Positions 2,302-33,897 of a stretch of 40,112 nucleotides of DNA are shown piece by piece. The notes under the pieces are model-generated. The model was not told the DNA's origin. It was given only the letters and a program-made list of their open reading frames with translations, and searched no databases. The position numbers were made by a program, and so were the translations under genes. The DNA is taken from the NCBI GenBank assembly GCA_947473045.1, contig CANJCO010000046.1, positions 1 through 40,112 of the forward strand, in the 5' to 3' direction. The first letter of the stretch is position 1; each line of letters opens with the position of its first letter. This stretch comes from Myxococcales bacterium (GTDB taxonomy: Bacteria > Myxococcota_A > Polyangia > Polyangiales > Polyangiaceae).

Positions 2302-3089
2302 CAGGCGGCTCCCGGGCCCGCTTCGGGCTCCTCTTCGCCGAGGTAGGCGGCGATGACCTTGCGGTCGGCGCGCACGGCCTCGGGCGCTCCGTGGGCGATC
2401 GTCTCTCCGTGATCGAGCACGTGAATCGTCTCGCACACGCCCATGACGACCTGCATGTTGTGCTCCACCAGCACCACCGACAGCGCGAAGGTGTCGCGCA
2501 GCCAGCGGATCTGCTTTTTGAGACCTTCGGCCTCGCCGTAGTTCATGCCGGCCGCGGGCTCGTCGAGCAGCAGCAGCTTCGGCCTGAGCATCATGGCGCG
2601 GGCGATCTCGAGGCGTCGCTGATTGCCGTACGAGAGCGACGTCGAGGCTTCGTCCCGCATCTCGCTCATCTCGAAGACGTCGAGCAGCTGGCGCGCCTGC
2701 GTGTGCATCGCGGCGTCGTCGTCGTAGTGCGCGCGGGTGCGAAACAGGGCCGATCCGAGGTGGGCCTTTTTCTGCAGCTCGCATGCGACGAGCAGGTTTT
2801 CGAGCACGGTGAGCTGGCCGAACAGGCGAATGTTCTGAAAGGTGCGCCCGATGCCCACGGCCGCGATCTGCGCCGGCTGCAGGGGCAGCAGATCGTGATC
2901 GCCGAAGCGAATCGATCCCGCGTCGTGTTTGTAGACGCCGGTGATGAGGTTGAACACCGTCGTCTTGCCGGCGCCGTTGGGACCGATGAGGCCGAAGATG
3001 CTCTTTTCAGGCACCTCGAAGCTCACTCCGCCGACGGCGCGAAGGCCGCCGAAGCTCTTGGATACGCCGCTGAGAACGAGCGCGCTCAT
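2301..3089 (-). CDS. livG: LivG-type branched-chain amino acid ABC transporter ATPase
   Basis: 262 residues, the second ATPase of the transporter. Walker A GPNGAGKT is at residues 36-43. The LivG-type features follow: GIGRTFQNIRLF in the Q-loop region, the signature LSYGNQRRLEIARA, and Walker B LLLLDEPAAGMN, then the switch HNM motif in VVLVEHNMQVVM. The C-terminus IAAYLGEEE matches the family end. It overlaps livM by four bases (ATGA) and livF by one. Identity as LivG rather than LivF rests on the longer inter-motif region and the AAGMN sequence. Confidence 0.95.
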   Translation of the reverse strand: MSALVLSGVSKSFGGLRAVGGVSFEVPEKSIFGLIGPNGAGKTTVFNLITGVYKHDAGSIRFGDHDLLPLQPAQIAAVGIGRTFQNIRLFGQLTVLENLLVACELQKKAHLGSALFRTRAHYDDDAAMHTQARQLLDVFEMSEMRDEASTSLSYGNQRRLEIARAMMLRPKLLLLDEPAAGMNYGEAEGLKKQIRWLRDTFALSVVLVEHNMQVVMGVCETIHVLDHGETIAHGAPEAVRADRKVIAAYLGEEEPEAGPGAA

Positions 3090-4246
3090 GTGACTGCGGG
3101 CTCCGATTTGGGCCTGGGCCCGGGTCTCTTTTGTCCGAGCTCGCGCTCACCCAGCATGCCCTCGGGCCTGCGGATCATCAGCGCGATCAGCACTACCGAG
3201 TAGATGATCATGCGCAGCGCGTTGAGGTCGACCGTGAGCTCGAAGGTGCCCAGCATGTGGGGCCCGCGAATGAGCTGAGCCACGCTCGTGTTTTGCAGCT
3301 GCTCGATCGCCTTGACGGTGACGGTCACGAAAATGCCGCCGATGATCGCGCCGGAGACGCTGCCCGAGCCGCCGATGATGACCATGGTGATGGCGTCGAA
3401 CGAGGCCTGGAAGTTGAAGGTCTCGGGGTTGACGAGGTAGCTCCCGTCGCGCATCTGCGCGATGAGCCCGCCCGCGACGCCGCCGCCGATCGCCGCGATC
3501 ACGAACGAGGTGACCTTGTAGCGCGTCGGATCGACGCCGACTGCCGCCGCGGCGATCTCGTCTTCGCGCAGGGCGCGCAGGGCTCTGCCCCAACCCGAGA
3601 ATTTCAGCCGCCATGCCGCCACGCAGGCCAGCGTGGTGACGCTGAGCACCCAGAACGGGCCGGCATAGAGCGGCAGTCCCTGACCGTCGGGGCCCATGTA
3701 GCCGTTCTGTCCGCCGAGCTTCGATACGGCGACCGAGAGCGCGTGCAGCGCGCCGCCCGACGACATGGCCTGTCCGATCGTTTCGCCGCCCGAGCCGACC
3801 TGCGCGGTGCCGATCACGAGGCGCACGATCTCGGCGAAACCGAGCGTGACGATGGCGAGGTAGTCGCCCTTGAGGCGAAGGCTGGGCAGGCCGACGATGA
3901 AGCCGAAGAGCGCAGCGACCGCCGCCGATGCGAGCAGGCACGCGGGTACCACGATGAAGCTGCGGGCGAGGGTGGCGTCGCCGCCGCCGAGCCACTTGTG
4001 CATGTTGCCGCTGAGCACTGCGCTCGTGTACGCGCCGAGGCTGACGAACCCAGCGTGCCCGATCGAAAATTGCCCGGCCATGCCGTTGATGACGTTGAGC
4101 GACAGGGCCACGACGACGTTGCACGCGGCCAGCATGACGAGCTGCCGGACGGAGCCGTCGGTCACGAGCACCGGCAACGCCCAATCGAGCGCCATCGCCA
4201 CGACGAGCGCGCCCGCAACGAAGATCGCCGTTCGGTACTTGTGCAT
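3086..4246 (-). CDS. livM: LivM-type branched-chain amino acid ABC permease
   Basis: 386 residues with multiple hydrophobic segments from residue 8 onwards. LivM hallmarks are clear: ALSLNVINGMAGQFSIGHAGFVSLGAYTSA near the N-terminus, LRLKGDYLAIVTLGFAEIVRLV in the middle, the cytoplasmic coupling motif GWGRALRALREDEIAAAAVGVDPTRYKVTSFV, and MVIIGGSGSVSGAIIGG near the end. It forms half of an inner-membrane pore. The usual partner permease LivH is not encoded next to it: a patatin gene lies 53 bases upstream. Either LivH is elsewhere in the genome or this set works with another permease. A GAGAAG-like ribosome site is just before the ATG. Confidence 0.95.
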   Translation of the reverse strand: MHKYRTAIFVAGALVVAMALDWALPVLVTDGSVRQLVMLAACNVVVALSLNVINGMAGQFSIGHAGFVSLGAYTSAVLSGNMHKWLGGGDATLARSFIVVPACLLASAAVAALFGFIVGLPSLRLKGDYLAIVTLGFAEIVRLVIGTAQVGSGGETIGQAMSSGGALHALSVAVSKLGGQNGYMGPDGQGLPLYAGPFWVLSVTTLACVAAWRLKFSGWGRALRALREDEIAAAAVGVDPTRYKVTSFVIAAIGGGVAGGLIAQMRDGSYLVNPETFNFQASFDAITMVIIGGSGSVSGAIIGGIFVTVTVKAIEQLQNTSVAQLIRGPHMLGTFELTVDLNALRMIIYSVVLIALMIRRPEGMLGERELGQKRPGPRPKSEPAVT

Positions 4247-18262: not shown

Positions 18263-21200
18263 TTAGGGCGCGCCCAGCTCGCCGAGCGCTCGGACGGCGT
18301 CCCGCCGATCGGGCGAGCTCGTGGGGGCCACCTCGAGGAACTTCTTAAAGCGCTCGATCGCTTCCTTGCGCTGCCCCGTGCGCTTGAAAGCTTCGGCGGT
18401 TTGGAACTGAAGGTCGGAGAACCAGCCCGGCCTGATGTCCATTTTGTCGGCCTGCTGGGCCGCGTACCCGAGGTGCTTGGCGGCTTCGGCTGCGTTTCCG
18501 CGCTCGAGCAGCAGCTTGCCAAAACGGTACCGCCACGACGTGACGCTGTCGTTTCCGCTCACGGCTTTTTGCCACTCGTCGAGCGCAGCGGCGACGTCGT
18601 TCTTGTCTTCGTAGCATTCGGCGAGCGCCGCGTGGGCTTCGATGCGCGACGGCTTGAGCTGAAGGGCGCGCTTCAGGTCGCGCTCGGCGTCCTCGACGGC
18701 TCCCTGCTTGCGCTCGAGCGATCCGCGCTGCCAGAACACGTCGCCGTTGAGCTTGTCGAGCGCGTAGGCTCTCTCGATCTCGTCGCGCGCGATGCCGAGC
18801 GCCTCGCGGTTGTTCGACTCGTTGGCCGCCCACGCCACGTACATGTGATATTCGGCGCGGTTGGAGTCGAGCTCCGTGGCGCGCCTCAGGTACCGCATCG
18901 CTTCGGCGTTGCCGCCGCCGTTTTGTGCGAACAAGGCGCGCCCGAGGTAGTGGTTTGCTTCCGCACTGTTGGCCCGCTTTTCGAGCACTTTGCGGAGCAT
19001 CGGGAGCCCCTCGGTGCCCCGCCCGATGGCGACGTACGCCGCCCCGACGCGCAGCATGAGATCCGGGTCTTCGGGAGCCTTCGCGAGCGCAGCCTTGAAC
19101 TCGTCGAGCGCCTTTTCGGTGTTGCCGCTCTCCTCAAAGAGAAGGCCGCGTTCGAGCGACAGGCCGGGATAATCTTTGTCGGTCGCGCGCACCTGATCGA
19201 ACTGCGCTGCGGCCTCGGTCATGCGCCGCATTCGGCGGTAGGTTACGCCCAGCTTGAAGCGCGTGAGGAGGTCTTGCGGATCGAGCTCGACGGCGCGCGC
19301 GTAGCGCTTCACCGCGGCCTCGTAGTCGCCCTGAGCCGCGAGGAACTCGGCCAGTGCGCGCTCCAGCGCCGGCGTATCGGGCAGCTTTGTGCTCGCCTCT
19401 TCGACGACCGCTTTCGCGGCTGCGTTCTTGTCTTGCGATGCGAGCAGCGTCGCGAGCGCCACGTACGGCATCACCGCGTCGGGGTCGCGCGGGGACGCCA
19501 GCTCGATCGCAGAGCGCAGGGCCTTGTCGGCGTCTTCGCGGTTGCCAAGGGCGCGCTCGGCGTCGGCGAGCGCATACGAGAGCAGCATCGACTTGGGAAA
19601 GCGGGTGCGCGCCGCGATGAGCTGATCTTTTGCGTCCTTGAGGCGCTCGAGGTGCACCTTGGTGAGCGCGTCGTAAGCGATGGCCTGGGTGTCGTTCGGG
19701 TCGCTCTGCAGGGCCGTGTCGAAGCGGGAGAGTGCCTCCGAATAGCGTCCTTCCGACGACAGCATCATTCCCTGGCCGACCAGGGCCGTCACGTGGGTCG
19801 GCACGGTCTTGAGGGCCATGTCGAACGCGGCCCTCGCGTCCGCTGCACGGCCGCGCTTCATGTGGATGAACGCGGCGTGCGCGCGCGCGTCTGCGATCTC
19901 GTTCGGCGAGGCGCCGGCCTTCGCCGGACCTTCGCAGACGGCGTTGAAATCGGCGAGCGCGCCCAGTTCGTCACCGTTTGAATATTTGTATGATCCACGC
20001 AACGTCAGCGCGCCGGCGTGAAGCGGCGACGCCACGAGCGCGGCGTCTATCTCTTTGGTCGCCGCCGTGTCGTCGTCGGCCAGTTTCGCGGCTCTCGCCG
20101 CTCCGAAGTGGGCGCGCGCCGAGCCGCTCGCTGAGAGCGCCTGCGCGAAGGCCGCGCGAGCAGCGGGCGCGTTGCGCGCTTTGAGTTCGACGTCACCGCG
20201 CAGCAGCGCGATTTCTTCTCCGACAGGGTCGCCCGCAGCGCGCCTGGCAGCCGCTTCGAGGCCTGCGCGCGCGCTCTCGGGTGAAGCTCCGATGGCGCCT
20301 TGCGCCGCCGTCGCCAGCGCGAGGTAGCTCGTGTCGGGATAGCGCTCCAGCTCGGCCAGGAGCTGTTTCGCTCGGGTCGAGCGATCGGGATCGGCGCCGA
20401 AGCGCGCCTCGTAGGCAAATTCGGCGAACGCCGCGTAGGCGGTGAGCGCCTTGGCGCGAGGCGTGCGGGCGTGGGCGGCGAAAATTTCGTCTACCGCTCC
20501 CCGCGTGCTCGCGAAGGTGTCGGCCCGCGCTTTGTCGCGCAGGGCCTTGCTGGCCGCCGCAGTCGCAGTGGCGTAATCCGTCGCGTGGAGCTTGTCGATC
20601 ACGACAAACCGGCCAAACGCACCGAATCGCGACAGCTCGAGCGCGCCGCCGCCGACGGCTGCGATCGCCAGAAAAGCGAGCACGACGCGCCCCGCTCCGG
20701 ACTTCTTCCGTGGGGCCTGCGCGCCGTCGCGGCGCGCGCGTGGCGCTTCGGCGGCGGGCAGCGTCAGCTCCGCACCGGCGTTGGCGCTCGGAGGCGGCAC
20801 CGACTGCATGCGGGGCGGGGGTGTTGAGGCGCGCGGGAGCGGTCCAGGCGGACCAGAGCGCCGGATGGGCTCGTCGGAGCCGCCGAGATCGACCTCGCCG
20901 AACGCCATGCCGCCTGCCTGGCGGGCTTCGGCGCGCTCGGGCGCCGGCGGAGGAAGCTGCGGGCGGGCGGGGACGGGCGGCGGCGCCACGTTTGGCCCCC
21001 CCCCTCGTGACTCTGCTCCGCTGCGCATCGGCGAAGGTAGCGCGGCGCCGATCGGGTCGAGCTCACCGAAGTCGCTGATCGCGCCTGGCGCGATGGGCAT
21101 ACGGCTCGAAGGAGGGAGATCGAGCTCGCCGAAGTCTGACAGGTCGGCAGGCGCCGCCGCGGGCGCGAAGCCTCCCGCGCGCGAGGGCAACATGTTCGCG

Positions 21201-22123
21201 GGAGTCGGGTAATCGGCTGTGGCCGTGGGCCGGTCGCCCGCGGCCATGGGAAAATCGATGTCGCCAAAACCGTCGGCGACGTCTGGACGAACGCTCGGCG
21301 GCCTTCGGGCGGCGGCAGGGACGGCGGACCCGCGGGGCGGCGTCGCCGCGAACGGGGATGCGCTGCGCATGGCGGGGAAGTCGGCGGCGGGCGACGGCAG
21401 GTCAAGCTCGTCGAGCGGCCCCGGCGCGCCGGTGGGAAATGCGTTCGCCAGGGGCGTCGCGCGCCTCGCGAGAGGCAGATCGTCGTCGAGCGAGCCGAGC
21501 GCGGCGGGAAGGCCCGAGGACCGATCGTCACGCGGAGACGTTGATTGTCGTGGGTGCGCGGCCGGGACGGGCTTCGTCGCATCTCCGCGCGCGGGGGCAG
21601 GAAGCTCCGCCGCGGGGGCTCCGCCGAAGGGATCGTCGAGCATGGAATCGCCGAAGCTGAAGTCGGGGATTTCCGGCGCAACCGCGGCCTCTTTTGCCGG
21701 TAGCGGCGGCGCCTTCGCCAGCGGCGGTGCCGCCACTCTGCTGGCGGCGGTGATCGCGTTGAGCGCGCCCGGCGGCAGCGTCTTTCGAATGACGGCGGGC
21801 GCGTGACGCTGGAGAGTGCCTTCAGGAGTTCGCGGCAGCGCACCTGCCCCCGGCAGCGCCGGCGGCACGGACGCCCGGCTGGACGGCGGGGGCTCATCGA
21901 GGCCCGGAATTCCGAGGCCCATCATGGTTGCATTCGGCTTGCGCGCGGCCACTTGCGGGGCCGTCGCGTCAGCCGGCTTCGCGGCCTCAGTGGGGGCGAT
22001 GCCGCTCCTGACCATGAAGGTGGTGCCACACTTTGGGCAGCGCATCTTCAGGCCCTGAGCGGGCACGCGACGCTCGTCTACCTGATACGGCGACTTACAC
22101 GATTCGCACTCAACCCTCAGCAT
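18263..22123 (-). CDS. Zinc-ribbon, TM and TPR-repeat protein
   Basis: 1286 residues from the ATG at 22123, which has a GAGAGG ribosome site; an upstream in-frame start at 22171 is less likely. Residues 1-38 form an MJ0042-type zinc ribbon: Cys6/Cys9 (CESC) and Cys29/Cys32 (CPKC). Residues of about 40-470 are Pro/Ala/Gly-rich with repeated D-F-G-E-L/I/V-D-L motifs (for example FGELDLPPS, FGELDPIG, FGEVDLGG). One TM lies at about 477-497 (VVLAFLAIAAVGGGALELS). The remaining about 780 residues are tandem TPR helices. Topology by analogy to similar myxobacterial proteins would place the ribbon in the cytoplasm and TPRs in the periplasm. Partners unknown; scaffold role is inference. Confidence 0.88.
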   Translation of the reverse strand: MLRVECESCKSPYQVDERRVPAQGLKMRCPKCGTTFMVRSGIAPTEAAKPADATAPQVAARKPNATMMGLGIPGLDEPPPSSRASVPPALPGAGALPRTPEGTLQRHAPAVIRKTLPPGALNAITAASRVAAPPLAKAPPLPAKEAAVAPEIPDFSFGDSMLDDPFGGAPAAELPAPARGDATKPVPAAHPRQSTSPRDDRSSGLPAALGSLDDDLPLARRATPLANAFPTGAPGPLDELDLPSPAADFPAMRSASPFAATPPRGSAVPAAARRPPSVRPDVADGFGDIDFPMAAGDRPTATADYPTPANMLPSRAGGFAPAAAPADLSDFGELDLPPSSRMPIAPGAISDFGELDPIGAALPSPMRSGAESRGGGPNVAPPPVPARPQLPPPAPERAEARQAGGMAFGEVDLGGSDEPIRRSGPPGPLPRASTPPPRMQSVPPPSANAGAELTLPAAEAPRARRDGAQAPRKKSGAGRVVLAFLAIAAVGGGALELSRFGAFGRFVVIDKLHATDYATATAAASKALRDKARADTFASTRGAVDEIFAAHARTPRAKALTAYAAFAEFAYEARFGADPDRSTRAKQLLAELERYPDTSYLALATAAQGAIGASPESARAGLEAAARRAAGDPVGEEIALLRGDVELKARNAPAARAAFAQALSASGSARAHFGAARAAKLADDDTAATKEIDAALVASPLHAGALTLRGSYKYSNGDELGALADFNAVCEGPAKAGASPNEIADARAHAAFIHMKRGRAADARAAFDMALKTVPTHVTALVGQGMMLSSEGRYSEALSRFDTALQSDPNDTQAIAYDALTKVHLERLKDAKDQLIAARTRFPKSMLLSYALADAERALGNREDADKALRSAIELASPRDPDAVMPYVALATLLASQDKNAAAKAVVEEASTKLPDTPALERALAEFLAAQGDYEAAVKRYARAVELDPQDLLTRFKLGVTYRRMRRMTEAAAQFDQVRATDKDYPGLSLERGLLFEESGNTEKALDEFKAALAKAPEDPDLMLRVGAAYVAIGRGTEGLPMLRKVLEKRANSAEANHYLGRALFAQNGGGNAEAMRYLRRATELDSNRAEYHMYVAWAANESNNREALGIARDEIERAYALDKLNGDVFWQRGSLERKQGAVEDAERDLKRALQLKPSRIEAHAALAECYEDKNDVAAALDEWQKAVSGNDSVTSWRYRFGKLLLERGNAAEAAKHLGYAAQQADKMDIRPGWFSDLQFQTAEAFKRTGQRKEAIERFKKFLEVAPTSSPDRRDAVRALGELGAP

Positions 22124-22199
22124 TTTTTCCCTCTCGCCACAACGCACAACGCTATCACAGCGACCCCGCAAGATGCGAAATCCGTGGACGCACGCCCTG

Positions 22200-22853
22200 T
22201 CATGCCGGAAAACCTTCGGCCGACAGATCGAAGCGCTCGGCCTCGATCAGCGCCTGTTGCGCGTCAAAATTGAGGAAGGTCACCTCGGCCTTGAGCAGGT
22301 CGAGCACCGCGACGCATGGGCTGTCACCTTGTCGCAGCGTGCCCGGGTTGACGAGCGTAAGGCCGCCTACCCGTCGCACCATTCGCTCGTGCGTGTGTCC
22401 CGACACGATGATGCGCACCTGGTCGGCGAGCACGAGGGCCTGCAGTCCGTCCATCGCTGCGACGGCCGGCTCCTCGTCGGTGGGACGCAGGCCGGTCATG
22501 TCGTCGCGGCCGATGCCGTGACAGAGCAGCAGCGGACCTACGGGCGAGCCGAGCGTGATCGTGGGCGGCAGGGCGCGCAGCCATTCGAGGGATTCCGAGC
22601 ACAGCGCTTCTTCGCGGTGGGCTTCGGGCAGACCGCGCATCTCGCTGTGGATCAGCCACCGATCGTGATTGCCACGCACCGACAGCACGCCGTGGTCGCG
22701 CAGCAGTCGCAGGGTGCGCTCGACGTCGCCGCGCCCGTCGACGAAATCTCCGACGGCGAGCACATGGTCGACGCCCTCGCGCTCGAAGCGCTCAAGTGCG
22801 GCGCTGAGCCGAACGTCTTCTGCGTGCACGTCGCCGAGGAGACCGAGGCGCAT
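22200..22853 (-). CDS. Calcineurin-like metallophosphoesterase
   Basis: 217 residues. The full set of metal-binding motifs of the superfamily is present: GDVHAE (Asp8, His10), GDFVDGRGD (Asp36), GNHD (Asn62, His63), CHG and GHTHE near residue 160. The fold is a small single-domain type. Substrate cannot be told from sequence; members include phosphodiesterases and protein phosphatases. It starts two bases after the tldE stop, so it is co-translated with the TldD/TldE pair. No signal peptide. Confidence 0.9.
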   Translation of the reverse strand: MRLGLLGDVHAEDVRLSAALERFEREGVDHVLAVGDFVDGRGDVERTLRLLRDHGVLSVRGNHDRWLIHSEMRGLPEAHREEALCSESLEWLRALPPTITLGSPVGPLLLCHGIGRDDMTGLRPTDEEPAVAAMDGLQALVLADQVRIIVSGHTHERMVRRVGGLTLVNPGTLRQGDSPCVAVLDLLKAEVTFLNFDAQQALIEAERFDLSAEGFPA

Positions 22854-22855
22854 CG

Positions 22856-24184
22856 CTAGACCGCCGCCGACGCGCTGGCCATGTTGAAGCCTGCGGCTGC
22901 TACGGCCGGCATGCGGACGATGCCGTCGCGCGAGGGCACGCGTGCGCCGCGGGCTGTCATGCCGGCGATGTTCGCGAGCACCCGCGCCGGCGAGTCGTTG
23001 AAGCGAAAGTTGTTCACGGGCGAAGTAACCTCGCCGCGCTCGATCAGAAATACGCCGTCCCGCGTCAGGCCCGTGACCATCAGCGATTTTTCGTCGAGCC
23101 AGCGGCAGTACCAAAAGCGCGTAACGAGCAAGCCCCGCTCGACCTGTTTTACGAGCGCGTCGACCGATGCGGACGTGCCGCCCGACAAGCACCACGTGTT
23201 GGGCTCGCCCGTGGGATCGGCTCCGTTTTTCTTGCCCCAGAACCGGGAAGTTCGCAGCGTCTTGAGTGTGCCGTCTTCGATCCATGTGGTGGGTCGCAGC
23301 GGAGATCCGTGCCTGTCGAAGGTCGCGCTGGCCGTCGCTGCGTCGGTCGGATCGGAGCGCAGCGTCACGCACGGCGAAAAAAGACGCTCCCCAACCGCGC
23401 TTCCGGTTTTGCGCGACAAGAAGCTGCGCCCCTCGTCCGCTGCGCGCGCGTCGAGGGCGTCTGTCAAAAAGCTGACCAGCTCGCCGACCGCGGCGGGCTC
23501 GAGCACGACGTCGTAGCGGCCGGGAGCCAGCGTCGTCGGCCTTCGCGAGCGCAGGCATTTGGCGATCGCCTGCTCGCTCGTGGCGCGCGCGTCGACAACG
23601 CTCGACTTCGTCTCCTCTGCGCCGGCCCAGCCCGATCCGGTGGCGTCGCCGGAGCGCGCGGTCACGGTGAGTCGCGCGACGCTTTGGGAGTGCGAGGCCG
23701 CGAGGCCCGCGCTGGTCGCGAGGTGGGTGTCGTGGCCGCCCGCTTCGTAAAATCCGGCTACGATCACATCGTTCGCCTTCGACAGCGCGATCGCTGTCCG
23801 CGCCACGGCCGCGCGCGCTTGCGGCGGCTGCGCCCGGGTCTGCGGGTCGTGCGCTTGCGGGGAGCTCGGAAATGCCTGCGCGCGGGCGACCGGCACCCAC
23901 TCCGGGTCTTCGGGCGCGAGCCTCGCGACCTCGACGGCCCGCGCGGCGAGCGCGGTGAGCGACGCGTCATCCTGCTGGTTGGTCGTCACCGTCGCGTGTC
24001 TGCGGCCGAGCGCCACTGTCAGCGAGACGGCGTTGACGTCGCTCGCGCCGCTCGTGGTCAGCTCACCCGCCGCGAAGCGCACGTACGCGCTCGCGCCTTC
24101 ACGCACGTGCGCGATCGCCTCGGCATTTTTCGCGAGCCGGGTCACAGCGTCGACGACCTTGCGCGCCGTATCCTGCGCGCTCAT
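22856..24184 (-). CDS. TldE/PmbA-type partner subunit
   Basis: 442 residues of the TldD/PmbA family. The TldE half-enzyme lacks the HExxxH zinc motif and holds the substrate strand in TldD/TldE heterodimers, which trim or process short peptides and modified peptides such as microcin B17 precursors in E. coli. Features are the N-terminal SAYVRFAAGELTTSGASDVNAVSLTVALGRR and the C-terminal LVTRFWYCRWLDEKSLMVTGLTRDGVFLIERGEVTSPVNNFRFNDSPARVLANI, as in the family. No signal peptide is seen, so it should be cytoplasmic, unlike its partner. The start overlaps tldD by four bases. Confidence 0.88.
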   Translation of the reverse strand: MSAQDTARKVVDAVTRLAKNAEAIAHVREGASAYVRFAAGELTTSGASDVNAVSLTVALGRRHATVTTNQQDDASLTALAARAVEVARLAPEDPEWVPVARAQAFPSSPQAHDPQTRAQPPQARAAVARTAIALSKANDVIVAGFYEAGGHDTHLATSAGLAASHSQSVARLTVTARSGDATGSGWAGAEETKSSVVDARATSEQAIAKCLRSRRPTTLAPGRYDVVLEPAAVGELVSFLTDALDARAADEGRSFLSRKTGSAVGERLFSPCVTLRSDPTDAATASATFDRHGSPLRPTTWIEDGTLKTLRTSRFWGKKNGADPTGEPNTWCLSGGTSASVDALVKQVERGLLVTRFWYCRWLDEKSLMVTGLTRDGVFLIERGEVTSPVNNFRFNDSPARVLANIAGMTARGARVPSRDGIVRMPAVAAAGFNMASASAAV

Positions 24185-25731
24185 GCCGCCCCCGCCTTCG
24201 TTGAAATCACGTTGACGCCGCGGAAGCGCGCGGGCGGGCAGCCGTGGCTCACCGCGTTGCTCTGCGTGGGCTCTCCCTTGCCGTCGTTGAGCGCGCCGTG
24301 CAGCTCGAAGCTCTTTGCGTCACCGATGAGGTCGCAGCTGCGCCAGAACTCGAGCGAGCTCGACTGATAGGCGACGTCGCGCAGCGCGCCGGCGATTTTT
24401 CCGCCCTTGATCTCGTGGAACATCTGGCCGCCGAACTGGAAGTTGTAGCGCTGATGATCGATCGACCAGGAGCCGTCACCCGAGATGAGGATGCCGTCGT
24501 CGGTGGCCGCGACGATGTCCGCCAGCGATCGCGGCTCGCGGCCCGGCGCGAGCGAGACGTTGGGCATGCGTTGAAACGCGACCGCGCGGTAGTCTTCGGC
24601 GTAGGCGCAGCCGTTCGAGCGGGGAAGGCCGATCGCGCCTGCCAGCTCGCGCGTGGTCTGATACCCGACGAAGAGGCCGTCCTTGACGAGGTCCCATCGC
24701 TGCGTCCGCTCGCCGTCGTCGTCGTAGCCGCAGGTCGCGAGCCCGCCGCGCGTGGTCTTGTCGGCGTAGAGCGACACGTGCGGAGCCGCGTACCGGAGCG
24801 AGCCGAGCTTGTCCGGCGTGGCGAACGAGGTGCCCGCGAAGTTGGCCTCGTAACCCATCGCGCGGTCGAGCTCTGTGGGATGTCCGACCGACTCGTGGAT
24901 CGTAAGCCACAGGTTCGACGGCGCCAGGACCAGATCGCGCTTGCCGGCCGTGACCGGGGGGGCCGCGAGCTTTGTGCGCGCGTCCTCGGCCATCGCCCTG
25001 GCGTCTGCGCGGAGGCTCGATTCGGCGATGTACTCCCAACCCGCCTGCATCGGCGGCAGCTCGTGCGCGCGCGTCACCGCCAGCCCGCTTGCCGGGTCGA
25101 CGGCCGTCAATTTGTAGCCTGCGCCGACGCGCGTGATCGATTGCGTCAGGAGCGAGCCGCACGTCGATGCGAACGTTTTATCCTCTACGAGCACTTCCGA
25201 AAAACCATTGCAGAATACAACTTTTTCGCCGCGCGCTTCCGCCCAGATCGCACGCAGCAGCTCGGCCTTCTCGGCGAGCGGAACGCTCAGCGGGTCGACC
25301 CGCAGCGGCGTCGACCACGTATCGCGGTACGTGGCGACCGGGGCGAGCGACACGGGGCGGGTGGCGGCTCCGGCGTTGGCGCGCGCGATGGCGATGGCGC
25401 CCTCCGCGGCGCCGACTGCCGCCTCGGGGCTCACGTCTGGCGTTGCGGCGAAGCCCCACGCACCAAAGGCGAGCACGCGCACGCCGATGCCGTACGATTC
25501 GCTGAAGCCGACCTCCGAGACGTGCTCTTCACGCGTGGCCAGATGCTCGCGTCTTCTCCGCACAACGCGGGCGTCGGCGTAGGTCGCGCCCAGGCGGGTC
25601 GCCGCATCGAGGGCGGCCCCGAGCGCCGACTGGGCGTCGTCGTGCGTGCGCGGGGCGTGCGGCGCGGGCATGCGGCAGCCGGCCGCCGCCGCCGCCGATC
25701 CGATCACGAACCCTCTTCGTCCAAGGCGCAT
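24181..25731 (-). CDS. tldD: TldD-type metalloprotease with Tat-lipoprotein leader
   Basis: 516 residues. The zinc motif HESVGH lies at 279-284 and a C-terminal Cys (498, in SHGCPP) could be the third ligand, as in the family. GYEANFAGTSFATPDKLG and DYRAVAFQRMPNVSLAPG are TldD-typical. The N-terminus MRLGRRGFVIGSAAAAAGC has a twin-arginine motif, a hydrophobic run and a lipobox-like end, which would direct it to the periplasm or membrane; E. coli TldD is cytoplasmic. HPTE after the motif differs from the usual HGLEGD. It is divergent from the DUF962 gene (48 bases) and heads a run of tldE and the phosphoesterase. Substrate unknown; no peptide precursor gene was recognised. Confidence 0.88.
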   Translation of the reverse strand: MRLGRRGFVIGSAAAAAGCRMPAPHAPRTHDDAQSALGAALDAATRLGATYADARVVRRRREHLATREEHVSEVGFSESYGIGVRVLAFGAWGFAATPDVSPEAAVGAAEGAIAIARANAGAATRPVSLAPVATYRDTWSTPLRVDPLSVPLAEKAELLRAIWAEARGEKVVFCNGFSEVLVEDKTFASTCGSLLTQSITRVGAGYKLTAVDPASGLAVTRAHELPPMQAGWEYIAESSLRADARAMAEDARTKLAAPPVTAGKRDLVLAPSNLWLTIHESVGHPTELDRAMGYEANFAGTSFATPDKLGSLRYAAPHVSLYADKTTRGGLATCGYDDDGERTQRWDLVKDGLFVGYQTTRELAGAIGLPRSNGCAYAEDYRAVAFQRMPNVSLAPGREPRSLADIVAATDDGILISGDGSWSIDHQRYNFQFGGQMFHEIKGGKIAGALRDVAYQSSSLEFWRSCDLIGDAKSFELHGALNDGKGEPTQSNAVSHGCPPARFRGVNVISTKAGAA

Positions 25732-25779: not shown

Positions 25780-26142
25780 ATGAGCCAGAAGATGACCTTC
25801 CACGACTACATGCGCGCATACGGCGACGACCATCAGCATCCGGTCAACAAGGCCACTCACCTCGTGGGAATTCCCCTCATCGTGTGCTCGCTGCCGCTCA
25901 TTCCGGTTGCGCCTCCCGTAGGTCTGACAATGTTTTCTGCTGGCTGGGCGCTGCAGTTTGTGGGGCACTATTTTGAGGGAAAGAAGCCAAGCTTCACCCG
26001 CGACCTTCGCTACCTCGCGATCGGGCCGGTGTGGGTCGCCGTCGAGTGGGTCGAGCTGGTCACCGGCAAGCGCATCTACGAGGCGGCCGAGGCCGTAGCG
26101 CCGGGCCCGGCCGACGACGCCGCGCGTGCGGCAGCCAGCTAA
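25780..26142 (+). CDS. Mpo1/DUF962-family membrane protein
   Basis: 120 residues. Yeast Mpo1 is an Fe(II) dioxygenase for 2-hydroxy fatty acids; bacterial DUF962 members are less studied. Family marks are HQHPVNKATHLVGIP (His18, His20, His27), GWALQFVGHYFEGKKPSF, and LAIGPVWVAVEW. Two to three hydrophobic segments span the protein. It stands alone on the plus strand. Its TAA stop (26140-26142) overlaps the TAG stop of the tamA-like gene (26139-26141), so the genes are convergent with no spacer. Divergent gap to tldD is 48 bases. Confidence 0.85.
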   Translation: MSQKMTFHDYMRAYGDDHQHPVNKATHLVGIPLIVCSLPLIPVAPPVGLTMFSAGWALQFVGHYFEGKKPSFTRDLRYLAIGPVWVAVEWVELVTGKRIYEAAEAVAPGPADDAARAAAS

Positions 26143-29100
26143 AATAGGCCGATTGAGAAGTTCAGCGCGCCGAAATCCTCGTAGGCGGCGACGCGCGTGA
26201 GGTTGATGCCGTAATCGAGCGCGAGCGGTCCGACCGGCGTCTGCAGTCGCAGCCCCGAGCCCGAAGCGACGCGCCAGCGGAAGCCGTGATCGAACGGGTA
26301 ACGAGCATCCTGCCAGAGGTTGCCCAGGTCGACGAAGAGCACCGTCTCGAGCGGTCCGAAGAGCGGCAGGCGCAGCTCTGCGCGCGGATTGATCATCAGG
26401 TTGCCTCCGCGCACCGCGATCGTGCTCGGGTCGATCGGGTGCGCAGTGGACCGCGAGCTCGCGATCGCGTCGACCGCGTCTTGCGGAAACAGGGTGTCCT
26501 GCGCCCAGCCCCGCATCGAATCAAAGCCGCCCATGAAGAAGAACCGATCGGGATAGGTCACCGAGTTTGAAGCCAGCTGGATGATCTCGCCGAGGCGAAG
26601 CGTGGCCGCGAACGAGGCCTTCGGCCCGACAGGTACGTAGGCGCTGAACGTCTGCGCGAGGCGCACGAAGTGCCCGTTCGATGCCTCCTGGGTCGCGAAG
26701 GCGTCATCGTGCTCGACGCTGCCCGCGACGTATGTGCCCTTGCGCGCGTTGTACGGACTGTCTCTGCGATCCCACGCTACCGTGAAGCGCTGCGAGGCCA
26801 CGACGCTGTCGCCGCTCGGCGCCCGCAGCAGCTTCGCCACGTCGTAGTTTCCGCCGGTCGCCGCGATCGCCTCGGCGGGGGTCCTGTCGTTGAACACAAA
26901 CAGGTTGTTGTGCTCGACCCCGAGCCCGACCGACAGCTGCACCTGACGCGCGGGCCTGTAGTAGAGTGTGGGGATCGCGGCCTGCTTGAGGATCGTGAAG
27001 TAGCGCTCCGGATCCTGCAGCACCACGCCGTCGAGCGAGGCGCGCACCAGCGGACCGAGGCCTACCTCCGGAAATGCCATCGTCGCGGTGACGCGCGCCG
27101 CGAGCCGCTCGGCTGCGGAGAGCGTCTTGAAGTTCGCCGCGATCGTGGGATCGAGGATGAGAAAGTCGGGGAGGTACGAAAGCTGGGCCCGCAGCGACGC
27201 GCCGACGGCGCTACCGAACAGGTTCTTGTGTCCGTACTCGAACGCGCCTCGCGCGCCTTCGCCCGTGGAAAAACCGGGGCGGAGCTCGATGTACTGCGGC
27301 TTCACCTCGGTCACCGTGACGACGACGGTTTTGTCGGCCTCCGGCACGAGCGGGTTCGACATCGCCACGTTCACGCTCGAAAAAACGTTGAGCGTCGCGA
27401 CGCGCTCCTGGGTCTTGCGGGCCGCGCTCGTGCGGTAGGGCTGGCCAATTTCGAGGGCCACCCGACGCCGGATGGCCGACTCGCTCGTGAGGTCGTTGCC
27501 GCGAACGTGGATGTGTCGAATGATGACCTGAACGCCCTCGGTGATGTCGAAGCGAACCCGCGCGCGGGTCTGATCGGGCGATTTTTCGAGAGCGAACGCG
27601 ACGTCGGCGTAGGCGAAGCCTTCTTCTTTATAAAGGTCGAGCACGCGTCGCCGCGCCTGATCGAGCGAAACCGAGCTGACGGGCTCTCCGAGCTGCACCG
27701 CCGCGGCAGCCGCGAGCCGCGTCTCGTCGATCGACGCGGCGCCTTTGAACGCGAGATCGTAGACGAAGCTGCGCGGGCCGAGCTTGATCGGGACGCGCAG
27801 CGAGACGCTGGCTTCGCAAAGCAATCCGCGGGCCGGATCAGGTGTGCACGGCGCGAAGGCCGGCGCTGCAGGCGCAGCGAGCGGCAGGCCGGACGCGTCG
27901 TAGGTGCACGCAAAGGCCGGGGCGCTGCGGGGCGGCGCGGCATCGCAGCGTCCCGCGCCCGACTTCGGATCGCAGGGCCGCCTGAGAACTTCGACCGGAC
28001 CGACCATCGCCGCGAGGTATCCCTCTGCGCGGTAGAGCTCCTGCACGTGCGCCACCGCCCGCTCATACGTGCTCGCGGCGTAGACGGTGTTGGGGTCGAG
28101 ATCGATCGGCTCGACGCGGGCTCCGGAAGCGCCCGAGAAGAGCGCGTCGACCCCCTCCTGCGACGGCGACACGAGCAGGTCGGCGCCCGGGAGGTCTTCT
28201 TCGAGGAAGCTGTCGATTTCGCGCCCGACCGCCGCAGCCGTCGCCGGTCCGCCGCCCGTGAGCTTCGCGATTTCTTCGGTCTTGAGGCACGGGTAGCTGC
28301 GCGACGTCACCCGGACGCGCTCGCCCTCCCGCACGTGAAACACGAGCGCACGCGCCTGCTTGTTCGGATCGTCGCGCGTCTCGGTTGTCACGGCCACGTC
28401 GAGGAAGCCGCGAACTTCGTAAAACCGGGCGATGCGCGCTTCGAGCTGCAGGTCTGAGAGGTCTGCGCCGTCGCTTTCGCCGAGCGCGGCGGCGCGGAGC
28501 GCGTCACGATCGTAGTGCTCGTTGCCCACGAACTGCAGCGCGTACTTCGGCCCCGAGTCGATGCGGACGCGCAGGGTGACCATGCCGGATGCGAGCACAA
28601 CGTCGTGAACAACGTCGGCGTCGTGGTATCCGGCGCCGCGCAGGGCCCCGACGAGCTCGTCGTCGGCGCTATCGAGCGCAGGCTCGTCGACGCGGTCGCC
28701 GCGATCCAGCGCGTACCGCGCCGTCAATCGGTGCAGATCCGCCGCCGCGGCGCCAAACGTGTAAAATACACGTCGCTCGATCTTGCGGGGCGCTGCGGGC
28801 GAGACATCGATGAGCACGACCGCCCTCGTCGGCGCATCGGTCGGGCGCGCGGTGACTCGGACGACCGCGTCGGGATAGCCTCTTCGCGCGAGCAGCGCGC
28901 GCATCCGATCGGCGCGCGTGTCGAGCTCGTTGCCGACGAACTCGCTGCCCTCATCAAGGCCCGCCTCCCGGAGCAGATCGTCTACGCCGATCGCTCCGCC
29001 GTGGGTGTCGATGACGAGTCCATCGACGATAAACCTCGGCCGGACGTGCACGCGCACGTGGACGCCGGAGTCGCCCGTGACGACGTTGACCCAGCCGTCG

Positions 29101-29462
29101 CCGAACAGGCCCCACTCGAGCACCTCATCGAGGACCCTCCGGGCGCTGAACGGCGAGAGCGCTTCGCCGGCCCTCACGCTCGTGATGGCGCGCAGCGGGG
29201 GCGGGCGGAGCGGGGAGTCTTCGACCACTACATCGACGCCGAGCACGCGCTGTCCGAGAAATGGGGTCAGGTCGGGTGGCGCCGCCAGCGCCGGAAGTCT
29301 CGGCGCGAGCGGCGGTGACGGTGGCGGCGTAAGCACCGTAAATTCGCTGCTTCCAGCCGCGCCGGCCGAGCCTTCCGGCGCGAACATGAAGGCTGCGACA
29401 AGGCAGCCGATCGGCAAGATCGTCCGCGATGCGGCGTGTCGGGTCGGGCGTCGGGAGCTCAC
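26139..29462 (-). CDS. BamA/TamA-family outer-membrane assembly protein
   Basis: 1107 residues from a GTG at 29462; the signal peptide (TILPIGCLVAAFMFAPEGSAGAA) supports that start. Multiple POTRA-like periplasmic modules occupy about 70-700, with repeated beta-alpha-alpha-beta units such as ALRAAALGESDGADLSDLQLEARIARFYEVRGFLDVAV. The C-terminal barrel is of the BamA type, starting VTEVKPQYIELRPGFSTGEGARGAFEYGHKNLFG, with FFMGGFDSMRGW (the loop 6 RGW-type motif) and a terminal Phe (NFSIGLF). It is longer than usual TamA. Residues 497-549 hold five Cys in a Pro/Ala-rich insert within the POTRA series. It starts 16 bases after tamB. Called TamA-like because of this pairing; a BamA role cannot be excluded. 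Confidence 0.92.
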   Translation of the reverse strand: MSSRRPTRHAASRTILPIGCLVAAFMFAPEGSAGAAGSSEFTVLTPPPSPPLAPRLPALAAPPDLTPFLGQRVLGVDVVVEDSPLRPPPLRAITSVRAGEALSPFSARRVLDEVLEWGLFGDGWVNVVTGDSGVHVRVHVRPRFIVDGLVIDTHGGAIGVDDLLREAGLDEGSEFVGNELDTRADRMRALLARRGYPDAVVRVTARPTDAPTRAVVLIDVSPAAPRKIERRVFYTFGAAAADLHRLTARYALDRGDRVDEPALDSADDELVGALRGAGYHDADVVHDVVLASGMVTLRVRIDSGPKYALQFVGNEHYDRDALRAAALGESDGADLSDLQLEARIARFYEVRGFLDVAVTTETRDDPNKQARALVFHVREGERVRVTSRSYPCLKTEEIAKLTGGGPATAAAVGREIDSFLEEDLPGADLLVSPSQEGVDALFSGASGARVEPIDLDPNTVYAASTYERAVAHVQELYRAEGYLAAMVGPVEVLRRPCDPKSGAGRCDAAPPRSAPAFACTYDASGLPLAAPAAPAFAPCTPDPARGLLCEASVSLRVPIKLGPRSFVYDLAFKGAASIDETRLAAAAAVQLGEPVSSVSLDQARRRVLDLYKEEGFAYADVAFALEKSPDQTRARVRFDITEGVQVIIRHIHVRGNDLTSESAIRRRVALEIGQPYRTSAARKTQERVATLNVFSSVNVAMSNPLVPEADKTVVVTVTEVKPQYIELRPGFSTGEGARGAFEYGHKNLFGSAVGASLRAQLSYLPDFLILDPTIAANFKTLSAAERLAARVTATMAFPEVGLGPLVRASLDGVVLQDPERYFTILKQAAIPTLYYRPARQVQLSVGLGVEHNNLFVFNDRTPAEAIAATGGNYDVAKLLRAPSGDSVVASQRFTVAWDRRDSPYNARKGTYVAGSVEHDDAFATQEASNGHFVRLAQTFSAYVPVGPKASFAATLRLGEIIQLASNSVTYPDRFFFMGGFDSMRGWAQDTLFPQDAVDAIASSRSTAHPIDPSTIAVRGGNLMINPRAELRLPLFGPLETVLFVDLGNLWQDARYPFDHGFRWRVASGSGLRLQTPVGPLALDYGINLTRVAAYEDFGALNFSIGLF

Positions 29463-29478
29463 GCGGATCGCTTCGCTT

Positions 29479-32400
29479 CTACTCGAACTCGAGCCGCCAT
29501 CGCAGGTCGATGCCGAGGTTGCCGACCGATGACGACGAGACGTCGCTCACGTTGTCGTACGAGCCCTGAACGCTGAGACGGTTCGACAGTCGCCACTGCA
29601 CGTTGGCGCGCAAGTCGCGATCTTCCGACAGGCCTGTCGACACGTTGGCGCGGATCTGGTTCGTGATGCGCTTGCCGATGGTGACCTGCGGCTCGGTGCG
29701 ACCGGTGCGGGGCGAATAGGCGCTGCCGAACCGGAAATCGTCGATCACGGGGATCGCTGCCCGGACCGCCGTGGAGGCGCCGCTGACTGCGCTCAGGGCC
29801 TCGAGGGCCGCGCCCGCCCCGAGCGCGCCCGCCTGCAGCTGGTCGATTTCCGCGCGCGTCATCCCGACCGTCAGCAGCAGCACGATGTCTTCCTGCGACA
29901 GCGGCGGATCGCTCGACATGTCGATCTTCAGGTTGTCGGTCTCTCCGTAGGCGTGCAGTCCGATGCGCCAGAGCGAGCCTCCCCGGGCCGTCGAGGAAAG
30001 CGACGATGAGCTGCTGTCGCCGCGCCGGTATTCGGTCTCGGCGAACACATCGACGACCGCTGCGATTCGCGTGGGATCATCGAACCGCAAAAAGGCCTGT
30101 TTTACCTCAAAAACGCTGGCTCCGAAGGGGAGGCGAAAGCGGCCGCCGGGCAGCGATTTCAGGCCTCCGCGCAGCCCCATGCGCTGATTGGTTCCGCTCA
30201 CGGCGAGAAAGTCGGTCTCGCTCAAAAACTGCGCCTCCGCGAGGTTGTTCTTGATGCGCAGCGGCGCCCTCGACCGCACGCGCACGTCGAACGACAGCGC
30301 GTCGAGCGCGGGGTCGTAGCTTTCGACGACCGTGCGCTTGGCCTTGCCTCCGCCGATCGACGACAGGTCGCTCGCGATGCTGATCGGGCGCGTATACTCG
30401 AACGATGTGAGCGTGACGTCGCCAGCGAGGCGCGGCAGGCTCTGGCCTTCGATGTCCCCGCCGCCGGCGGACGTGAGCGCGAGGTCCGCGTCGACGCCAA
30501 CCGAAATGCCGTCTTGCGGCTGCAGGCGCAGGCCGCGCGCGCTCACGTCGAGCTCCGCGCCGGCGAAGGCCAGGCCCTTGATGGGAGCCCGTCCGGTGAA
30601 CGTAACGCTGCCGCCTGCGTAGCGCGCGCTCCCCCGGTCGACGCGCAATTCCTGAGTGTCTGCGATCATGTCGATATCGAGCTCGGTCACGGCGCCAGGG
30701 ACGTCTTTCGCGGTCAGCTCGGCGCCGCGCACGTGAACGTCGCCTTTGACGCTCGGCGCGCGCGCGGGGCCGCTCGCGGAGAGGTGTCCGCTGAGCTGCC
30801 CCTTGGCGCTCGTGAGGCGCGGCACCACTCCCACGAGCACCCCAAGGTCGACAGGCATGAGGTCGGCGTCGAACGCGAGGCGCGGATCGGTGGTCACGTG
30901 GGAGGCCTCGCCCCGAACGCTGACGCTGCCGGTGAGCCCCGTGGGCGTGGCCAAATCAAGCGTGATCGGAGAGACGAAGAGGGTGTCCTTTGCGACCACG
31001 AGCCAGACTCCCGTCGGGCGCAGGGTCACGCGATTTCCGCCTCTTTCGAGGAAGAGCGACGACGGAGCGAAGCGCACCTCCGCCGAATCGAAGGCGCCCT
31101 GAGTCGCCTTCGAGATCACCAGCTCTCCGGACAGCGCCCCCGACGGAGGCGCGCCGTCGAACGCCCCCGTCGCCCTCGCGACCTGCCCAAGGTCGAGATT
31201 GCGGATCGTCATCGCCGCGGAGACTTCGGCGAGCTTGCGTCGCGACAGGCTGAGCGAACGCATCTGAATCTGGCCGCCGAGCAAATCGCCCGACACTTCC
31301 GCGGTCAGACGCGAGGGGCTGTCCCGCAAGGCCGCCTTGCCTACTTCCTGAACGATCGCGCCTCCGCAGCGCGTATGGCCGATAACGGCCCCGGGCGGCG
31401 AGGCGTTGAGCATGGATGCGTGAAGCTTCGACGCGCCGAATTTCGCGCCGCGAAATGAAAGGGGCGAGATGTCGACGTCGGCGTCGGTCGTGAGCGCGCT
31501 CAGCGTTCCGCCAAGCTGCGCGATCCCCGAGACAGCGGCCTCGGCCTCGCTGCCCAGCGCGCCCAGCGTTTGCAAGCGCGAAAGCGGAACGCCCTCGATG
31601 ACAAAGTTGCCGTGCACTGCGCCGCCGATGTCGCTCTTAAACGAGCCCAGAACGGAGCCCACCGCCGTGACGTCGTTGTTTCTGTGCTTGTGCAGGGTGA
31701 TGGCGTGCGCGTCGATCTCGCCTCCTGCGAGGCCGGCTCTGCGATCACGCCAGCGGAAATCGAAGTCGGCGTCCCCGTCTGCGAACTCCTCGCCGAACAA
31801 GAGCAGGTCGGTGAGGTGGGTGGTCGCGTGCACCGAGAGCGCGCCCGTGCCGCAGACGTCGCTCGGGCCGCCGCTCGCGAAGTGGAAGGCGGCGTCGGCG
31901 CGCGCCTTCGCCTCGATTCCCTCGAAGCGAGGGTCGTCGTCCAGATTGAAGATGGCCAGCGCATCGCGCAGCTTGAGGTCGGTCGTGCCGATCGCTCCGT
32001 CGACGGTCAGCCCGGGGCCGTCCGAGCCGAAATCGACGCGGCCCGCAGGCATGGCATAGGTGCTGCTGCCCTTGGTGGCCCTGACTTCGCGAAGATCGAG
32101 CGTGAGGTTCGTGAGCTCGGCGTTTACGTTGGTGATGTCCCCGAGCGCCATCTCCCCGAGGACGTAGTCTTTGATCTGCGCTGTCGCTGTGATGTGCACA
32201 GGCTTGTTGTTCGCTGCGAGGAAGTGAAACGCGCTGAGTCCGACCCGGCCCGCCATCGGCGTGGTCGCGATGGGAGAGATATCTTCGAGGCCGATGCTCG
32301 CGGTCGGCACGTCGACCTGCACTCCTCCCGCGTAATACAGGGCGACGTAGCCGCCTTCGGCGTGTCCGTGCGGCCCGTCGACGAACGCGCTTCTGAATTG

Positions 32401-33897
32401 TACGCCGGTGTCGCGCACCGCGAGCTGTGCGCCGACCTTCGCAGCCGAAACGCTGAGGACCCGCTGGCGATCCGGTCGGTCGAAGCCCCGGTCGTAGACC
32501 GTAAATCCCGTGGTCTGGGCCTCGAAGGCGCCGTCGATCTTGAGGGGGAAGATGGTCCCCGACAGCAGGGGCGCGTGAACCTCGTTGAGGTCCCACGCCA
32601 CCAGCGGATGTTGGGATACTCCCAGATCGACCATGAGCCGCGTGAAGTTGACGCCGCCTGCCTCCAGCGAGCAGCGGAGCGGGATGGCCGGCGCGAGGGG
32701 CGAGACCTCGATGCCGGTCAGCGCGACCTTCCCGCCCGACAGTGCGATCGCGAGCCGCTTGCTCTTGACGACCCCGTCGTGAATCGACACGTCGGCTTCG
32801 ATCGACTCGGCGAGGTGGAAGTCCCGCAGCGCGATGTCGTGGGCCTCCACGCGCCCGTCGAGCTCGGGCAGCTGCATCTCCGGCAAGAAGCGGACGTCGG
32901 CGTCGGCCGCGATCCAGCCGTCGGTCTCCGGCAGTTGCGCCACCCGCTGGGCCAGACCCACCGGGGCCCGCACGTGCGCGTGGCCTTCGAGCGCTGGCCG
33001 CGCGTCCGGGGTTTTGGGCAGCTCGATGCGAAAATGGCTGAGCGCGAGCTCAAGATTTCGCTTGTCGCCGGTCAGCAGGTCGCACCCCACCGTGGCGCCG
33101 CTTCCGCTGTCGAGGTCTACGGCGCCGCTGAGCTTCAAACGCCGCACGAGCACCGCACCGGGCTCGACGCGAACGCGCGCATCCACTCCGCAAATGTCGT
33201 CGTCGTCGAACGCGATCCTGGCTCCTGCGTCGCCCGTCGGTCGGCGGCGGTGCAGCTGGATCGAGGAGCTCCGCAGCGCGACTTCGAGCGTCGACCCCGC
33301 GCGCGCGTCGTCGTCGGCCGAGATGTCGAGGTCGATGCCGTCGGCGCTGGCGGTCAGCGCCTCGCTCGCGAAATCGATGTGCAGGTCGGTGAGACCCACC
33401 ACGTCGAACGGCGCGTGAAAGGGCTCCGAGGAAGCCGATCCTTTCGTCTCCGGAAGGCGCAGGTTCATCAACTTCCCCCCCTGCATCACGACGCGGACCC
33501 GCGGCGCGTCCACGTCGATCTCAGCGATCTTTGGCTTTCCTGCGAGCAGGGCGAAGATGCGCGGGCGAACCGCAGCGCGCGCCGCTGTAAGGAACGGGGC
33601 GCCGCCGTCGCTCGACAGAACGGTCAGGCGCGTGAGCTCGACTCTCGGAGGCCACAGACCGACCCCCGCCGTGAAGCTCGCCTCGATGCCCTGAGCGGCC
33701 AGCAGCCCCTGGGCGTAGGCCTCCGCCTGACGTTGCGCCCAGGGAGAGCGAACCGCGCCCGCCAGCGCGAGGGGCAGCAGGCCGAGCAGCGCGAGCAGGG
33801 CGCAAAGAGCGCGCGCCAGACCGCGCCCGAGCGGAGCGCTGCGCCGCTTTGGCATGCGCGGCAGAGCCAGGCTGGCGGGTGGTTCGGACATCTTCAT
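29479..33897 (-). CDS. tamB: TamB-like translocation and assembly protein
   Basis: 1472 residues. TamB spans the periplasm as a beta-groove linking the inner membrane to TamA and helps insert some outer-membrane proteins or move lipids. A single TM anchor at about 28-49 (ALCALLALLGLLPLALAGAV) is followed by repeated beta-strand units and a C-terminal DUF490 region including TVGMTRAEIDQLQAGALGAGAALEALSAVSG, FRFGSAYSPRTGRTEPQVTIGKRITNQIRANVSTGLSEDRDLRANVQWRLSNRLSVQGSYDNV and an aromatic end (LEFE). Start at 33897; 33891 and 33855 are alternatives. It precedes the tamA-like gene by 16 bases. Size is somewhat above E. coli TamB (1259). Confidence 0.93.
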   Translation of the reverse strand: MKMSEPPASLALPRMPKRRSAPLGRGLARALCALLALLGLLPLALAGAVRSPWAQRQAEAYAQGLLAAQGIEASFTAGVGLWPPRVELTRLTVLSSDGGAPFLTAARAAVRPRIFALLAGKPKIAEIDVDAPRVRVVMQGGKLMNLRLPETKGSASSEPFHAPFDVVGLTDLHIDFASEALTASADGIDLDISADDDARAGSTLEVALRSSSIQLHRRRPTGDAGARIAFDDDDICGVDARVRVEPGAVLVRRLKLSGAVDLDSGSGATVGCDLLTGDKRNLELALSHFRIELPKTPDARPALEGHAHVRAPVGLAQRVAQLPETDGWIAADADVRFLPEMQLPELDGRVEAHDIALRDFHLAESIEADVSIHDGVVKSKRLAIALSGGKVALTGIEVSPLAPAIPLRCSLEAGGVNFTRLMVDLGVSQHPLVAWDLNEVHAPLLSGTIFPLKIDGAFEAQTTGFTVYDRGFDRPDRQRVLSVSAAKVGAQLAVRDTGVQFRSAFVDGPHGHAEGGYVALYYAGGVQVDVPTASIGLEDISPIATTPMAGRVGLSAFHFLAANNKPVHITATAQIKDYVLGEMALGDITNVNAELTNLTLDLREVRATKGSSTYAMPAGRVDFGSDGPGLTVDGAIGTTDLKLRDALAIFNLDDDPRFEGIEAKARADAAFHFASGGPSDVCGTGALSVHATTHLTDLLLFGEEFADGDADFDFRWRDRRAGLAGGEIDAHAITLHKHRNNDVTAVGSVLGSFKSDIGGAVHGNFVIEGVPLSRLQTLGALGSEAEAAVSGIAQLGGTLSALTTDADVDISPLSFRGAKFGASKLHASMLNASPPGAVIGHTRCGGAIVQEVGKAALRDSPSRLTAEVSGDLLGGQIQMRSLSLSRRKLAEVSAAMTIRNLDLGQVARATGAFDGAPPSGALSGELVISKATQGAFDSAEVRFAPSSLFLERGGNRVTLRPTGVWLVVAKDTLFVSPITLDLATPTGLTGSVSVRGEASHVTTDPRLAFDADLMPVDLGVLVGVVPRLTSAKGQLSGHLSASGPARAPSVKGDVHVRGAELTAKDVPGAVTELDIDMIADTQELRVDRGSARYAGGSVTFTGRAPIKGLAFAGAELDVSARGLRLQPQDGISVGVDADLALTSAGGGDIEGQSLPRLAGDVTLTSFEYTRPISIASDLSSIGGGKAKRTVVESYDPALDALSFDVRVRSRAPLRIKNNLAEAQFLSETDFLAVSGTNQRMGLRGGLKSLPGGRFRLPFGASVFEVKQAFLRFDDPTRIAAVVDVFAETEYRRGDSSSSSLSSTARGGSLWRIGLHAYGETDNLKIDMSSDPPLSQEDIVLLLTVGMTRAEIDQLQAGALGAGAALEALSAVSGASTAVRAAIPVIDDFRFGSAYSPRTGRTEPQVTIGKRITNQIRANVSTGLSEDRDLRANVQWRLSNRLSVQGSYDNVSDVSSSSVGNLGIDLRWRLEFE

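Follow-up and report, generated by a model that had tools for sequence, protein, structure and literature searches.

Where does a TldD/TldE peptidase work when one of its subunits begins with an export leader and the other does not? This question is raised by a gene pair in the window, by which we mean the whole stretch of 40,112 nucleotides of Myxococcales DNA that was analysed. Its TldD homologue begins with the predicted twin-arginine leader MRLGRRGFVIGSAAAAAGC, and the TldE homologue encoded by the adjoining gene, with which it shares a 4-base overlap, begins MSAQDTARKVVDAVTR and is leaderless (Table 1). TldD of E. coli is known as a leaderless protein. The reading that we prefer, at a probability of about 0.62, is that the window encodes an extra, extracytoplasmic TldD/TldE peptidase, whose TldE hitch-hikes through the Tat translocase on the leader of TldD. 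If true, a protease familiar from the cytoplasm would have a branch that works outside it.

As in E. coli TldD/TldE (PmbA; PDB 5NJ5 series; PMC5810440), both proteins have the three-domain PmbA_TldD architecture, and HExxxH is confined to TldD, which has HESVGH; the motif is absent from the translation of the window TldE, which resembles the non-catalytic subunit. All three Pfam domains of TldD (PF01523, PF19290 and PF19289) pass their cut-offs, with 46.6, 28.6 and 86.5 bits against 20.9, 20.9 and 22. In TldE the first and third domains pass (24.9 and 132.8 bits) and the central one, at 20.4, lies just under 20.9. Unlike E. coli TldD, the window proteins are far below the NCBIfam equivalog cut-offs: TldD scores 44.1 of 513 bits with NF008006 and 93.4 of 635 with NF040952, and TldE scores 29.7 of 438 with the PmbA equivalog NF008268. 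The AlphaFold2 model of TldE has a mean pLDDT of 92.4, and Foldseek matches it to 3qtd_A and to E. coli TldE (5nj5_B) with TM values of about 0.85 and 0.83, respectively. The model of TldD is poor (mean pLDDT 62.6), though its top Foldseek match is E. coli TldD; the body begins at about residue 28, with leader residues 1-27 under 50, and within the catalytic half residues 274-397 and 475-498 also fall under 50. An attempt to derive the geometry of the metal site from this model was abandoned because of these values.

Table 1. Positions of the gene pair, its sequence features and a neighbouring gene in the window
Feature	Position	Strand	Remarks
TldD-like metallopeptidase subunit	24181..25731	minus	516 aa; predicted Tat leader; Pfam PF01523/PF19290/PF19289 above cut-off
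Predicted Tat leader MRLGRRGFVIGSAAAAAGC (residues 1-19)	25675..25731	minus	twin Arg and hydrophobic stretch
Twin-arginine codons R5 R6	25714..25719	minus	R6 alignment column
Lipobox Cys19, candidate lipidation site	25675..25677	minus	strict lipobox pattern
HESVGH metal/catalytic motif, residues 279-284	24880..24897	minus	equals His262/Glu263/His267 of E. coli TldD
Asp483 codon (GAC)	24283..24285	minus	position of E. coli Cys454, the third metal ligand
TldE-like non-catalytic subunit	22856..24184	minus	442 aa; leaderless; start overlaps TldD stop (24181-24184)
YfcE-like calcineurin-type phosphoesterase	22200..22853	minus	leaderless; TIGR00040 just over cut-off, Pfam; starts MRLGLLGDVH

The twin-arginine leader across homologues

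The open reading frame of TldD translates at its N-terminus as MRLGRRGFVIGSAAAAAGCRMPAP. An in-frame TAA lies four codons upstream of the ATG, leaving the open frame only three codons longer, and thus a start further up is impossible. A homologue with 66% identity has a leader of its own.

Relatives were gathered from 59 close genomes and from a species-level genome collection, which yielded 21 loci (11 labelled Myxococcota, Labilithrix, Myxococcales or Deltaproteobacteria, 56-66%). Of 183 genomes of the order, 11 (among them the window genome) matched at E 1e-90 or better, and of 377 genomes of the phylum 38 matched at 1e-70 or better. Loci carrying two ids (e.g. L006/L035 and L036/L057) were counted once. 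The window-type set, called Asp-type after its residue at the position of the third metal ligand, consists of 30 different proteins, 29 of them with an N-terminus, as L044 is cut by a contig end. The alignment has 55 rows and excludes L063, L017 (which has a leader but lacks the ligand part) and L012 (N-terminus missing), as well as the archaeal L051, L052, L054 and L055. The canonical Cys-type L014, L016 and L019-L034 were scanned for leaders and kept outside the alignment; L015 and L018 are inside. In L063 (G140), an Asp-type TldD gene has two in-frame TAG stops and the TldE gene is intact, which may reflect assembly error or decay.

A twin-arginine leader is present at the same place in all 29 Myxococcota Asp-type TldD homologues that have their N-terminus, the window protein among them. 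In the 55-row alignment, the fraction of proteins with R6 at its column is 0.97 for the Asp set and 0.04 for the Cys set. A fixed leader test, which called for RRx[FLIVMW] within the first ~12 residues together with an uncharged hydrophobic stretch, was passed by 28 of 30 Asp-type TldDs and by 1 of 22 Cys-type TldDs; the two Asp-type misses are the truncated L044 and L078, which has an Arg inside the stretch. Among random sequences 657 in 200,000 pass by chance, and among shuffled N-termini 670 in 58,000 (0.3-1.2%). The leaders of L077, L078, L079, L083 and L085 were read by eye (the scan missed four and misplaced that of L079); L085, a long-branch Myxococcota protein, combines a leader read from a TTG start with Asp. 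Among 20 canonical TldD loci from close genomes, none was flagged (two also belong to the Cys-type set, and L020 has no N-terminus). The Cys-type relatives in the alignment show no comparable leader save L048. Several of their protein starts are our own choice, and when other starts in the upstream frames were scanned, L048 was the only one flagged among them.

Judged by its sequence, the predicted Tat leader of the window TldD is no accident of start-site choice. The upstream stop and the 29 homologues bear out the earlier note, which had read a twin-arginine leader on this protein. The window genome also contains genes for TatC and for TatA/B-type proteins, along with Lgt and LspA.

Transport of one subunit or of two

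A TldE reading frame lies directly downstream of TldD in 30 of 30 Asp-type loci, with an overlap of mostly 4 or 1 bases (L078 and L082 were read by eye for this count, and L040 is cut by a contig end). The neighbouring Asp-type TldEs include none with a leader (0/28, fixed test), and the test was negative in 42 of 42 TldEs overall. The earlier note's statement that the adjoining TldE of the window has none holds. Distances among TldDs and among TldEs correlate with r = 0.90 in 27 Asp-type pairs and r = 0.98 in 11 Cys-type pairs, which speaks of co-inheritance of TldD and TldE and not of contact, since species history alone can yield the same r. The window genome holds a second, canonical pair, TldD (G000:C6, L002) and PmbA/TldE (G000:C119, L001), both leaderless in the open frames shown. 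With that pair separate, the window TldE is left without another obvious partner.

According to PMC5810440, the E. coli enzyme shows proteolytic activity only when both subunits are present, and the instability of the TldD homodimer prevents its purification. The same paper describes the heterodimer as a ~65 A hollow sphere into which unfolded peptides pass with their N-terminus ahead. Given this dependence of E. coli TldD on TldE, hitch-hiking of the heterodimer through Tat would be the best explanation of the window pair. Tat exports cargo that is already folded, and hitch-hiking of leaderless subunits through it is established (PMC4273604). As described there, E. coli PaoABC, like the window pair, has one leader-bearing subunit; the partners of PaoABC are co-translocated, whereas co-export from the window would follow by analogy. 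Hitch-hikers of the PaoABC type are redox enzymes, unlike the metallopeptidase of the window. A pair with a single leader, an arrangement shared by a cyanobacterial locus and a Parabacteroides plasmid (see below), fits hitch-hiking. The earlier note had offered two options, TldE carried out with TldD as a folded complex or each subunit working alone. The E. coli enzyme's need for TldE and the instability of its TldD homodimer favour the first.

We infer the following course. TldD would fold and take up metal in the cytoplasm, and would there join the leaderless TldE, the product of the overlapping gene that follows. Led by the twin-arginine signal of TldD, the two would then cross by way of the Tat translocase in folded form, with TldE as the hitch-hiker. 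With the lipobox at the end of the window leader, the complex would here be held at a membrane that faces the periplasm; in other members of the family, whose leader looks cleavable, it would be free. Once exported, the pair would presumably act like its E. coli counterpart and shorten unfolded peptides from their N-terminal end, with a site composed of HExxxH and Asp. Such a Tat-leader branch would locate a TldD/E peptidase, and hence the peptides that it cuts, beyond the cytoplasm; it would also be a non-redox case of Tat hitch-hiking. In the open-access literature searched, which leaves most subscription papers outside, no report of a Tat-exported TldD was found. Ghilarov 2017 (PMC5810440) terms the natural function of the conserved TldD/E genes elusive.

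It is also conceivable, though unlikely, that TldD is exported alone through Tat, as a homodimer or monomer, and that TldE remains in the cytoplasm, where it would be a chaperone, a storage partner or the companion of the canonical TldD. PMC5810440 cites an archaeal TldD homodimer, that of Sulfolobus, as reported active, which means that TldE need not travel and counts against hitch-hiking. It also reports that both E. coli subunits form homodimers by ultracentrifugation. These points, and the lack of a leader on every TldE tested, suit export of TldD alone; the requirement for both subunits in E. coli, where the TldD homodimer could not be purified, the constant and mostly overlapping TldE gene next door, and the presence of a separate canonical TldE (L001) in the genome all argue against it.

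The end of the leader bears on a further alternative, namely that the leader is recognised by Tat but that its chief use is as an anchor, lipid or membrane, which keeps the enzyme at one membrane; anchoring and not periplasmic export would then be the point. The window stretch VIGSAAAAAGC fits the lipobox pattern. Ten further members have a strict lipobox as well, and L036, which has the Cys but also an Arg in the stretch, is a looser twelfth case. This distribution and the presence of Lgt and LspA agree with anchoring, but 18 of 29 leaders (L036 being borderline) have no strict lipobox, and AxA-like sites occur near the leader end in many Asp-type members, e.g. L072, L073 and L077. The leaders end in two styles, with a lipobox or without, and what they share is the twin-arginine leader as such; as the lipobox is optional, the conserved trait would be export and not lipid anchoring. 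The lipobox noted earlier is thus present in the window TldD and is not kept across the family (strict in 11 of 29 leaders); lipid anchoring as a conserved trait was rejected for this reason, and anchoring as the main role of the leader appears quite improbable. Least probable is that nothing is exported, the N-terminus being an unprocessed cytoplasmic extension or translation starting at one of the in-frame alternatives, GTG codon 9 or ATG codon 21: inspection by eye found no clear ribosome-binding site before the ATG, but the invariable RR leader of the homologues, set against its chance rate, and the lack of a comparable leader in the aligned Cys-type relatives other than L048 make this very hard to sustain.

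Aspartate at the third-ligand position

The metal ligands of E. coli TldD are His262, His267 and Cys454 (PMC5810440). In the alignment, H279, H284 and the catalytic E280 (window numbering) are invariant in 55 of 55 proteins. Glu287, Asp289 and Lys485 are likewise invariant; they are the window counterparts (E287, D289, K485) of the Glu, Asp and Lys that tether the clamp in E. coli TldD, according to PMC5810440. The Cys454 column, however, separates the two sets, with D in 30 of 30 window-type TldDs versus C in 25 of 25 comparison proteins. The window TldD thus differs from E. coli TldD in having Asp483 where the latter has Cys as its third ligand.

Such a replacement has been mentioned before. 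According to Ghilarov 2017 (PMC5810440), Asp may take the place of Cys "e.g., in Gemmatimonas sp.", which would make the site more thermolysin-like; Gemmatimonas TldD, as mentioned there, shares this feature with the window protein. The words periplasm and cytoplasm are absent from the text of Ghilarov 2017 (PMC5810440), and Asp is not tied there to export. What is new, by alignment, is the occurrence of Asp at the predicted third-ligand position in all 30 window-type TldDs, where it would presumably act as a working ligand.

On this pairing of leader and ligand it could be tested in a simple way whether a move of an enzyme to another compartment brings a change of metal ligands. Two proteins, however, rule out that a Tat leader strictly entails Asp. 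In L048, which comes from a cyanobacterium, TldD combines a probable Tat leader with the Cys ligand, and TldE is leaderless. On a Parabacteroides distasonis plasmid, WP_010183233.1 (L101) resembles the window protein in its leader with RR and a lipobox-like end (MNINRRDFIKTGG...LLGSC) and in its leaderless neighbour WP_211744342.1; unlike the window protein, it is a canonical-type TldD that keeps Cys (TCGKDGQ). In a tree of the 55 rows, made with the leader and ligand columns removed and without L008 and L009 (leaderless Cys-type close kin of L007/L093), the ligand need change only twice and the leader three times. The independent pairs number 2-3 (sign test p 0.5 or more), and with so few independent events the link between leader and ligand is suggestive only. 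L065, L096 and L097, the latter two from actinomycete plasmid records, are leaderless Cys-type proteins placed beside or within the Asp clade. At L065 the adjoining TldE (2952-3833) ends early, at 294 aa, and has a very long branch.

That the metal site adapted to an oxidising compartment by way of Asp is accordingly a hypothesis. The full proposal, in which Myxococcota at large would have a Tat-exported TldD/TldE that exchanged its Cys ligand for Asp to suit the oxidising outside and that crosses already folded and paired, TldE being the hitch-hiker, is tentative, and we would sooner doubt than accept it as a whole. The mean number of Cys residues is lower in the Asp-type proteins (1.9 versus 3.4 in TldE and 4.1 versus 5.1 in TldD), in related sequences with overlapping ranges; a lower Cys content of exported proteins was set aside as evidence on that account.

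Surroundings of the gene pair and related loci

The earlier note had also placed the phosphoesterase gene that follows TldE in a periplasmic unit with the pair, and this part did not hold. The protein is leaderless and an ordinary YfcE-like protein, and no match to it was found near TldD in 12 related loci, some of which lack full 6 kb flanks; it was rejected as a member of the unit. After it, on the same strand, a protein of 1302 aa (18263-22171, minus) combines an N-terminal zinc ribbon with many TPR repeats. Just upstream of TldD and divergent from it lies a gene for a small Mpo1-like protein (25780-26142, plus; PF06127, 2-hydroxy-palmitic acid dioxygenase-like). Further on, a TamB-family protein of 1472 aa (29479-33897, minus) is directly followed by a large Omp85/BamA-TamA-like protein with POTRA domains (26139-29462, minus), so that 26139-33897 holds a TamA/TamB-like pair.

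Among the plasmid-borne relatives, L099 (Novosphingobium) and L100 (Sphingomonas) have homologues of TldE and TldD followed by thioredoxin, a hypothetical protein and an M3 peptidase, an arrangement that looks like a peptide-processing cluster. L099 also has an annotated thioredoxin reductase, and L100 has an ABC transporter upstream. In the Parabacteroides locus (L101, 2839-5692), an anaerobic sulfatase-maturation gene lies upstream of the leader-bearing TldD and the leaderless TldE.
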